Shown: piece by piece, positions 8,488 through 10,023 of the stretch
Layout: every line of letters begins with the position of its first letter
Numbering within the stretch: position 1 is the stretch's first letter
Assembly: GCF_945952055.1 (NCBI RefSeq)
Contig: NZ_CAMFHB010000053.1
Coordinates: forward strand, 1-39,608
Source of the DNA: an uncultured Alsobacter sp.
Lineage (GTDB): Bacteria; Pseudomonadota; Alphaproteobacteria; Rhizobiales; Beijerinckiaceae
Direction: 5' to 3'
Length of the DNA: 39,608 nucleotides
Position numbers and translations under genes: made by a program
Notes under the pieces: generated by a model
Database searches by the model: none
Seen by the model: the letters and a program-made list of their open reading frames with translations, nothing else
What the model was told of the DNA's origin: nothing

Positions 8488-8506
8488 CGGTTGTAGTCGG
8501 TTGTAG
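8488..8506. repeat. Tandem 9-nt direct repeat in the soxA-8598 gap
   Basis: CGGTTGTAG occurs twice with one base between (8488-8496 and 8498-8506). The 10-bp period places both copies on the same helix face, as for an activator binding site. It lies about 90 bp upstream of the 143-aa gene, in an AT-richer stretch (8379-8597) that holds no gene I can see. Confidence 0.4.
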
Positions 8507-8597
8507 AAACCCCGGAAAACAACCTGAGATATAGGTTATTGGACGCGACGTGCCGCGTCTGCAATTTGTCTTGGGAGCCCCCGTGCGGGGTCTGTGA

Positions 8598-9029
8598 ATG
8601 ACGCCTGAGGAGCTCAGAGGTATCGAGCGGGATACGTTGGCGCGCCTGTGGGAGACTCAGGACGACGACCCGCCGTGGTCCTACCTGTACACCCGGCCCG
8701 GCTACACGAGCGCGTGGTGGTACCCCTGGCACGACGACAACGTGACGCTCGGTCTGGAGCGGGCGGTCGGGCGCGACGAGGTGCCCGCCACCCGCGTTTC
8801 GACCTGCTTGGCGCGCGCCGAGGATGCGCGCTGGTCTTGGGTCGTCTACGTCATCCCGGTCGATCACGTCAGCGAGAAGCGCTTCGCGGCGCTGGCATGC
8901 GGCCCCGACCTCGAATCCGTGCCGGCCATGCTCGGCGTGTTCGAGACGGAGGGCGAGGCCTGGCGCGCGGTGCGCCGGGCCGGCGCGATGGGCGGCGAGG
9001 ATCTGCCGGAATCCTCCGTCCACGGGTGA
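8598..9029 (+). CDS. Unknown 143-aa cytoplasmic protein, Trp-rich
   Basis: I do not recognise this protein. It starts MTPEELRGIERD, and its middle part is rich in Trp and Tyr (WSYLYTRPGYTSAWWYPWHDD). It has no signal peptide or membrane segment, and the C-terminal half looks like a compact alpha/beta fold. Upstream of the ATG lies a short CCCC-GTGC-GGGG hairpin rather than a clean Shine-Dalgarno. The 219 bp before it are notably less GC-rich and contain a tandem 9-nt repeat (8488-8506), so it probably has its own promoter. It may be unrelated to the sox genes. Confidence 0.65.
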   Translation: MTPEELRGIERDTLARLWETQDDDPPWSYLYTRPGYTSAWWYPWHDDNVTLGLERAVGRDEVPATRVSTCLARAEDARWSWVVYVIPVDHVSEKRFAALACGPDLESVPAMLGVFETEGEAWRAVRRAGAMGGEDLPESSVHG

Positions 9030-9251
9030 ACCCGGGCGGCTCTCGGGCGTTTCGAGTTTCAGCAGGATCGGCCGGCCCCGGCAACGGGGCGCGCCGCCAG
9101 CTCTGCGCCAGCGGGAACGCTGCAGCGCGCAGGGTGCATTGTGCAATGCGAAATGAAGGAATCCCTGGAGAAACGACGATCTAAGGCTTCGGATTGAGCG
9201 CTTGGTCGACGATTGGTTTCGGTTGAGACGAAAAAATCGAAACCCCAGGGG
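9030..9251. other. Intergenic region with two inverted repeats, no gene seen
   Basis: No convincing coding frame lies here. Two perfect inverted repeats do: GCATTG-TG-CAATGC at 9136-9149, and GGTTTCG/CGAAACC at 9215-9244 with a 16-nt spacer, the latter ending 7 bp before the -35 box of the small RNA promoter. They are candidate regulator binding sites for that promoter. Together with the RNA gene and the stretch up to 9479, they fill the 450-bp gap between flanking proteins. Confidence 0.45.
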
Positions 9252-9280
9252 TTGAAATGCTGCACTGCAGCATCTATGTT
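9252..9280 (+). promoter_or_regulatory. Sigma70-type promoter with a PhaR-like palindromic operator in its spacer
   Basis: TTGAAA (9252-9257), a 17-bp spacer, and TATGTT (9275-9280) form a near-consensus promoter. The spacer holds a perfect palindrome TGCTGCA-C-TGCAGCA (9258-9272). Its core CTGC-N3-GCAG matches the published site of PhaR, the polyhydroxybutyrate-responsive repressor. A bound repressor here would block RNA polymerase directly. The predicted transcript start, about 9287, gives a 77-nt RNA ending at the terminator below. Confidence 0.6.
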
Positions 9281-9286
9281 CAGGCC

Positions 9287-9363
9287 GTGGCGCTGAGGCG
9301 TCACATGCCCTCCTTGGGCGTTTCCTCCCTAGACTTGGGCCAGCCTGCGGGCTGGCCTTTTTT
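9287..9363 (+). ncRNA. mmgR: Candidate alpha-r8/MmgR-type trans-acting small RNA
   Basis: The predicted 77-nt RNA lies between the promoter above and a strong terminator. It folds as a small hairpin GCCC-TCCTT-GGGC (9307-9319), a single-stranded TTTCCTCCCT (9321-9330), then the terminator stem. From memory, that 10-nt UUUCCUCCCU element between two hairpins and a length near 77 nt are hallmarks of the Sinorhizobium MmgR family, which limits polyhydroxybutyrate granule accumulation. The CCUCCC stretch can pair with Shine-Dalgarno sequences. The PhaR-like operator supports the same role. The 5' end is inferred from the promoter and is not measured. Confidence 0.6.
9338..9363 (+). terminator. 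Rho-independent terminator of the small RNA
   Basis: A perfect 8-bp stem GGCCAGCC (9338-9345) with GGCTGGCC (9350-9357), loop TGCG, is followed directly by six T (9358-9363). This is a textbook intrinsic terminator on the plus strand, with only the small RNA upstream of it within 300 bp. Confidence 0.9.
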
Positions 9364-9479
9364 CTTTCCAGGGCAGGAAAGCGATCCCGCCCACCACAGC
9401 GGACCCGATCAGGACTCAGGACCGGCCGAAGCTGCGGCGGCGGACGGCGGCCCGGGGGAGGCCGCCGCCATGTCGTCGA

Positions 9480-9872
9480 TCAGGACTTCTTGCCGTCCGG
9501 GCCGAACTGCTTGAGGTAGGCCAGCACGTTGTCGACGTCGGCGTCCGACGTCAGCCCCGGGAAGATCATCTTGGTTCCCGGCACCTTGGCCTTCGGGTTG
9601 CGGATGTACTCCTTGAACGTGGCTTCGTCCCACGTGATGCCGGAGCTCTTGTTCGCGTCGGAGTAGTTGTATCCCTCGTACGTGCCTGCCTTGCGGCCGA
9701 TGACGCCGTTCAGAACCGGACCGACCGCATTCTTCGCGCCCTCACCGATCTGGTGGCAGACCTTGCACTTCAGGAACACTTTTTCGCCCGCCGCGGCGTC
9801 CTGGGCCATCGCCCCCGCCACCGAGGCCACCAGCGCGGCCGTGGCTGCGAGAGTCGTTGCAATCAGTCTCAT
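9480..9872 (-). CDS. cycA: Cytochrome c2
   Basis: The 130-aa precursor has a signal peptide (MRLIATTLAATAAL...GAMAQ), then DAAAGEKVF, heme site CKVCH, GPVLNGVIGRKAG and the axial Met in PGTKMIFPG. Cytochrome c2 carries electrons from cytochrome bc1 or other donors to the reaction centre, here via PufC. ATG 9872 has AAGGAG just upstream; the frame extends six codons further without a better site. It is divergent from bchI across a 281-bp region carrying a PpsR-type site, which may affect both. It is a close paralogue of the cytochrome at 1503-1898, in opposite orientation. Confidence 0.92.
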   Translation of the reverse strand: MRLIATTLAATAALVASVAGAMAQDAAAGEKVFLKCKVCHQIGEGAKNAVGPVLNGVIGRKAGTYEGYNYSDANKSSGITWDEATFKEYIRNPKAKVPGTKMIFPGLTSDADVDNVLAYLKQFGPDGKKS

Positions 9873-10023
9873 GCTCAGTCTCCTTCCCAAACGCCGGTCG
9901 AACCGGCGGTCCCCAATTTACGAGCGGTCGCAGGTCACGGATCCGAATTTGAGCGGCGGGGACTTATAATCTTTCGTCATGTTTTTTCGCCGATCGCAAA
10001 GCCGGTGGGCAGCAGATCGGAAG

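Follow-up and report, generated by a model that had tools for sequence, protein, structure and literature searches.

The intergenic region that separates a 143-aa ORF (8598-9029, + strand) from the cytochrome c gene convergent with it (9480-9872, - strand) raises the question of whether a functional regulatory RNA is encoded there and of which regulator reads the palindrome located in its promoter. The whole stretch of DNA analyzed, 39,608 nucleotides of a contig of an uncultured Alsobacter sp., is hereafter called the window. The present analysis indicates that this region very probably carries a functional gene of an alpha-r8 (MmgR-type) trans-acting small RNA (sRNA), repressed by PhaR and taking part in a negative feedback loop of polyhydroxybutyrate (PHB) storage. 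This reading draws on the family membership of the RNA, the anatomy of its promoter and operator, the presence of PhaR, the boxes of the phasin genes and the conservation of the box among relatives, all of them observed in this study.

The small RNA gene and its promoter

The following elements were identified at this locus:

9252..9257, + strand: -35 hexamer TTGAAA (promoter search), beginning 13 nt upstream of the box centre
9255..9275, + strand: PhaR-type operator, 21-mer AAATGCTGCACTGCAGCATCT, matching in full the PhaR consensus published for S. meliloti
9258-9272, centre 9265: perfect palindrome TGCTGCACTGCAGCA, within the operator
9275..9280, + strand: -10 hexamer TATGTT (promoter search)
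9287..9363, + strand: predicted 77-nt alpha-r8 (MmgR-like) sRNA (RF00519 match and fold; 5′ end predicted)
9287..9304, + strand: 5′ hairpin of the sRNA (predicted fold)
9305..9321, + strand: second hairpin, GCCC...GGGC (predicted fold)
9321..9330, + strand: conserved 10-mer UUUCCUCCCU of anti-Shine-Dalgarno type (sequence; 9/10 bases unpaired in the predicted fold)
9337..9363, + strand: intrinsic terminator, stem 9337-9358 plus T tract (terminator search, predicted fold)

The match to RF00519 (alpha-r8, MmgR/suhB family) at 9300-9373 covers the full length of the model (1-77), reaches 66.5 bits for a cut-off of 41 and is the sole gathering-level Rfam match in the whole window. The likeness to MmgR that an earlier note had proposed from the letters of this DNA is thus borne out by the covariance model. 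The 10-mer is reported to be the hallmark of the alpha-r8 family (PMC12559287); here, UUUCCUCCCU follows a weak hairpin and is itself followed by a Rho-independent terminator (9321-9330 and 9337-9363), the arrangement by which this family is recognized. Binding by Hfq and a length of about 77 nt further characterize the expressed RNAs of the family. The fold predicted for 9287-9363 (-40.7 kcal/mol, z -3.6) consists of three hairpins (5′ hairpin, second hairpin and terminator) and leaves the 15-nt stretch 9322-9336 unpaired. All parts of the 77-nt RNA described earlier, including its single-stranded element and its strong terminator, are therefore present, its start at 9287 being a prediction. 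Comparison with a set of 195 alpha-r8 sites (218 loci, 19 of them without core, gave 207 sites, of which 195 have at most one mismatch, those with less than 85 nt upstream being skipped) showed that a 5′ hairpin with 5 or more base pairs is predicted at 185 of them. An open core, with no more than one of its 10 bases paired, is seen in just 71 of the 195 predicted folds, which counts against the preferred explanation.

The promoter hexamers TTGAAA and TATGTT, separated by 17 nt, agree with 9 of the 12 consensus letters and form the sole sigma-70-like promoter found in 8500-10000 (0.1 expected), in line with the near-consensus promoter of the earlier note. The perfect palindrome claimed to lie between the two hexamers is indeed there: TGCTGCACTGCAGCA (TGCTGCA-C-TGCAGCA) occupies 15 of the 17 spacer bases and, when up to two mismatches are allowed, has a single match in the window (0.13 expected). 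The S. meliloti PhaR consensus WNWD2NYGCRNYGCRNH2WNW also has one match in the window, at 9255-9275 (0.06 expected), the centre of this operator being located 22 nt upstream of the predicted start. Furthermore, the 17-mer of the operator is, letter for letter, the rpoE8/acyP site of S. meliloti, which is positive in EMSA and is reported to be bound efficiently by PhaR (PMC12542648). The degenerate form YGCRNYGCR occurs 51 times in the window and, for this reason, is weak evidence by itself.

Two other repeats were noticed. The inverted repeat GCATTG-TG-CAATGC (9136-9149) overlaps a second YGCRNYGCR box (9142-9150); it lies 119 bp upstream of the operator centre and is possibly a distal PhaR site. 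The only other exact copy of TGCTGCACTGCAGCA in the genome (C21:98790-98804) is located shortly upstream of the point where a 161-aa protein lacking any Pfam match likely starts.

PhaR-type boxes in this genome and in its relatives

The genome encodes a single PhaR (C5:42895-43074) that carries both PhaR Pfam domains; judging from their sequences, two ORFs divergent from phaR are read as phaA and phaB. Searching for solved structures among PhaR relatives returned none. Boxes matching the full PhaR consensus are rare, with three in the 440 kb of this genome that were scanned, the operator at 9255-9275 included. Two of the four phasin genes (C36 and C7a) each have one full consensus match and two YGCRNYGCR boxes upstream; the phasin gene C20 has one degenerate box upstream and C7b none. 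Two degenerate boxes also precede a short-chain dehydrogenase that looks like a 3-hydroxybutyrate dehydrogenase from its sequence. No box was found in the phaR/phaA intergenic region nor for the C5 member of the two phaZ genes; for the other one (C9), a single degenerate box lies 234 nt upstream of the longest reading of its frame. Degenerate boxes are common in this GC-rich DNA (76 in 57.6 kb) and therefore count only by their position or number, so that, apart from the full matches, the boxes of phasin genes could be due to chance.

The alpha-r8 gene of the window (C53) is one of three paralogues, two of which have PhaR-type boxes. These three copies exceed the RF00519 cut-off, with 66.5 bits for C53 (9300-9373), 64.3 for C3 and 51.1 for C18; a fourth match, C23, remains below it (29.8 bits). 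Two boxes spaced by 21 bp precede the C3 copy, compared to one for the C53 copy, and no PhaR-type box was found for the C18 copy (C18:93009-93083). Therefore, control probably differs among the three copies. Upstream of the C18 copy, another inverted repeat, GGCGGCGATGCCGCC, is present.

The earlier note had suggested looking for the same operator before mmgR in related genomes, and the box does recur there in its degenerate form. YGCRNYGCR is centred 25-75 nt upstream of the core at 94 of 118 alpha-r8 sites from this genome and its relatives, compared to 1-10 of 118 for five permuted or re-spaced patterns and a mean of 2.4 (at most 7) for shuffles of the same stretches. These sites derive from 123 loci, four of them without recognizable core, that gave 126 core sites, of which the 118 with at most one core mismatch and at least 200 nt upstream were kept. 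The strict form CTGC-N3-GCAG is found at 5 of them. The earlier designation of CTGC-N3-GCAG as the PhaR site is thus supported as to the protein, the operator being a full match to the PhaR consensus, with the nuance that the strict form is rare and YGCRNYGCR is the conserved one.

In the order-level set (79 genomes), 63 genomes, among them the one studied here, bear phaR and an intact core, and every one of them has a box at one alpha-r8 copy at least. Boxes were detected there at 92 of 113 sites and two or more at 55 of them, several multi-copy genomes having a box at some copies only. Alpha-r8 matches above the cut-off are present in 63 of 68 phaR-bearing genomes of this set, compared to 4 of 11 phaR-less ones (Fisher p 7e-5), in a count made by eye that ignores kinship and genome reduction. 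The box is also present in 53 of the 72 genomes that do not belong to the order-level set, the class loci having been picked roughly down the score list and being neither a random nor a complete sample. When the class genomes are added, the box is found in 113 of 128 phaR-bearing genomes and is missing from the examined copies of the other 15. As for genomes without detected phaR (among class genomes with an alpha-r8 match, 18 of about 31, counted by eye, were examined), the box is found in 6 of 11 with an intact core and in 6 of 17 when a looser core is accepted. Of the six box-bearing phaR-less assemblies, five comprise 290-620 contigs, and phaR may therefore simply be missing from them. When phaR-less assemblies are restricted to those with no more than 100 contigs and an intact core, one of four has a box, compared to 113 of 128 phaR-bearing genomes of any contig number, kinship being ignored in these counts of phaR loss and box loss.

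The promoters of these genes also share a common architecture. Measured from the centre of the most upstream box, a TTG starts 14 nt before it in 69 of 137 promoters and 13 nt before it in 13 others, and -10-like hexamers most often start 9 or 11 nt after it. Spacings between boxes are of 19-22 bp in 67 of 85 cases, of which 40 are of exactly 21 bp. Among the 195 sites, the operator at 9258-9272 is the sole box with 14 of 14 palindromic positions. It should also be mentioned that three class genomes carry, upstream of the examined alpha-r8 copy, TTCGCAATTGCGAGATATGC, a palindrome with a two-base centre, in place of the PhaR-type box, and that one relative (G015) shows an unusual expansion to fourteen RF00519 matches.

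Neighborhood, candidate targets and alternative explanations

The alpha-r8 gene is preceded by soxY, soxZ and soxA and followed by bchI; the 143-aa ORF (8598-9029), located between the sox and bch clusters, has no Pfam match, and the closest named relatives of the cytochrome c mostly belong to Hyphomicrobiales, which places the genome there. The earlier note pointed to the location next to the photosynthesis cluster, a link that comparison with other genomes does not bear out. None of the ten alpha-r8 loci of three congeners (3.1-5.0 kb each) has a match to soxA, the 143-aa ORF, the cytochrome c gene or bchI. Likewise, none of 80 named cytochrome c loci (3.5-8.4 kb each) contains an alpha-r8 core, and bchI is present in seven of them. 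A DNA search with 9225-9365 in 298 genomes of the family found the RNA part widely. Besides the window, and among the matches listed, only that of G548 extends back through the operator (80% identity); its promoter carries a related box, TGCTGCAATGCATGA, and there is no sox, cytochrome c or bch gene in the 4.3 kb of this locus. More generally, such genes are lacking from all 23 loci with the best DNA matches in the family (G548 included, some of them overlapping). Since the arrangement is not conserved, the closeness to photosynthesis genes says nothing on the function of the RNA and the photosynthesis link was rejected as evidence.

In the functional sense, MmgR is an RNA that lowers the phasin level and PHB accumulation. 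Phasins were considered as direct base-pairing targets, an idea that duplex energies do not support. Pairing of the RNA with the ribosome sites of the four phasin genes is unremarkable, 0.10-0.73 of 52 background sites being as good or better. Since pairing singles out none of the phasin starts, the effect on phasins, if any, may be indirect.

Three other explanations have to be weighed against a functional PhaR-repressed gene. It is improbable that a protein other than PhaR, such as NtrC or an unrelated repressor, reads the palindrome and that the likeness of the latter to a PhaR site is coincidental or secondary. The full match of the operator to the PhaR consensus, the identity of its 17-mer to an EMSA-positive PhaR site, the full-consensus boxes upstream of two phasin genes of the same genome and the box found in 63 of 63 phaR-bearing, intact-core genomes of the order-level set all argue for PhaR, even though a palindrome alone names no protein, NtrC is the activator of mmgR reported for S. 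meliloti in reviews and some box-less class genomes have a different palindrome at the same place. It also seems unlikely that the C53 copy is a decaying or silent duplicate kept by chance at a non-conserved site, the C3 copy being the active one. Such a status would fit a neighborhood seen at no congener copy found and the single box of C53, compared to the two boxes 21 bp apart of C3; however, C53 retains an intact promoter, palindrome, core and terminator, and this copy combines the top RF00519 score of the genome with the only fully palindromic box of the 195 sites.

The remaining alternative, that the C53 copy was recruited to electron-transport genes and pairs with the ribosome site of the cytochrome c gene (9480-9872, - strand), coupling PHB state to its synthesis, is very doubtful. 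Pairing between the start region of this gene and the 17 nt at 9320-9336 is predicted at -19.7 kcal/mol, the best value obtained when 289 predicted gene starts from about 458 kb of the genome were scored. However, the margin is thin (-19.5 for the next best start) and the rank is exploratory because this gene was one of the 18 candidates first examined. Its homologues pair barely better than background (median of -10.75 at 42 of 80 loci vs -9.4 in 243 other ORFs, p 0.005), and the cytochrome c neighborhood of alpha-r8 is not conserved. There is thus little likelihood that an alpha-r8 duplicate specific to this lineage, provided with a perfect PhaR operator and recruited at the sox/photosynthesis border, couples the PHB reserve to cytochrome c translation and thereby storage to electron transport.

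The proposed circuit and known systems

In the preferred reading, that of a functional alpha-r8 gene under PhaR control, PhaR bound between the -35 and -10 hexamers would most likely repress the promoter. When PHB granules form, PhaR would be drawn onto them, the promoter would open and the amount of RNA would rise. The RNA would then pair through UUUCCUCCCU with ribosome-binding sites, probably with the help of Hfq, and restrain phasin synthesis and further storage, thus closing a negative feedback loop. PhaR repression and 10-mer pairing are inferred for the C53 copy from what is known in S. meliloti and Caulobacter, respectively. The loop from PHB through PhaR to MmgR, as the earlier note had drawn it, is well supported by the consensus match and the phasin boxes but is not new. 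The link between PhaR and the RNA, offered there as an inference of its own, has already been published for S. meliloti, in which AniA/PhaR is reported to repress mmgR and purified PhaR to shift its promoter (PMC12542648). According to the same source, the mmgR site CAATTGTGCACCGCAGCATTA is bound efficiently, the shift is abolished once the palindromes of the tested PHB-gene promoters, mmgR included, are removed or changed, and phaZ is bound as well. One review already mentions a conserved dyadic motif between -35 and -10; for the effect of MmgR on phasins, a review leaves open that it could be indirect, and another states that descriptions of a direct mRNA target of MmgR were lacking when it was written.

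The C53 alpha-r8 gene is real, was read correctly in the earlier note and belongs, as a well-formed example, to a circuit already known. Experiments have shown the PhaR box of alpha-r8 genes in one rhizobium, and its comparative breadth is what this work adds; how widely PhaR-type control over alpha-r8 extends in the order, and how often it relies on paired boxes, may be new. Alpha-r8 RNA is thus predicted to be a standing arm of the PHB regulon across much of the order, and a division of labor between PHB-responsive and other alpha-r8 siblings becomes directly testable.

The C53 copy resembles MmgR of S. meliloti by its 77-nt length, its three hairpins, its UUUCCUCCCU core and its terminator, as predicted here. 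In both cases the box lies between -35 and -10, its centre being located 23 nt before the start of S. meliloti mmgR and 22 nt before the predicted start of C53. The C53 box is a perfect palindrome, whereas that of S. meliloti mmgR (CAATTGTGCACCGCAGCATTA) is less symmetrical. As to the PhaR/AniA regulon, the shared features are the 17-mer of rpoE8/acyP and the full consensus, also found in two phasin promoters. Unlike in S. meliloti, whose phaZ is reported to be PhaR-bound, one phaZ gene lacks a box here (C5) and the other has one degenerate box (C9). Furthermore, S. meliloti is reported to have one MmgR copy (PMC12559287), compared to three in this genome. Caulobacter crescentus likewise has a multi-copy alpha-r8 family with a shared 10-mer, the SisA-D siblings, which are sponged by CrfA. 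This 10-mer is described as pairing upstream of the start codon of a target, a pairing proved for SisA by compensatory change (PMC12559287). The SisA-D siblings are reported in that source to lack a common promoter motif, whereas two of the three copies found here carry PhaR-type boxes.
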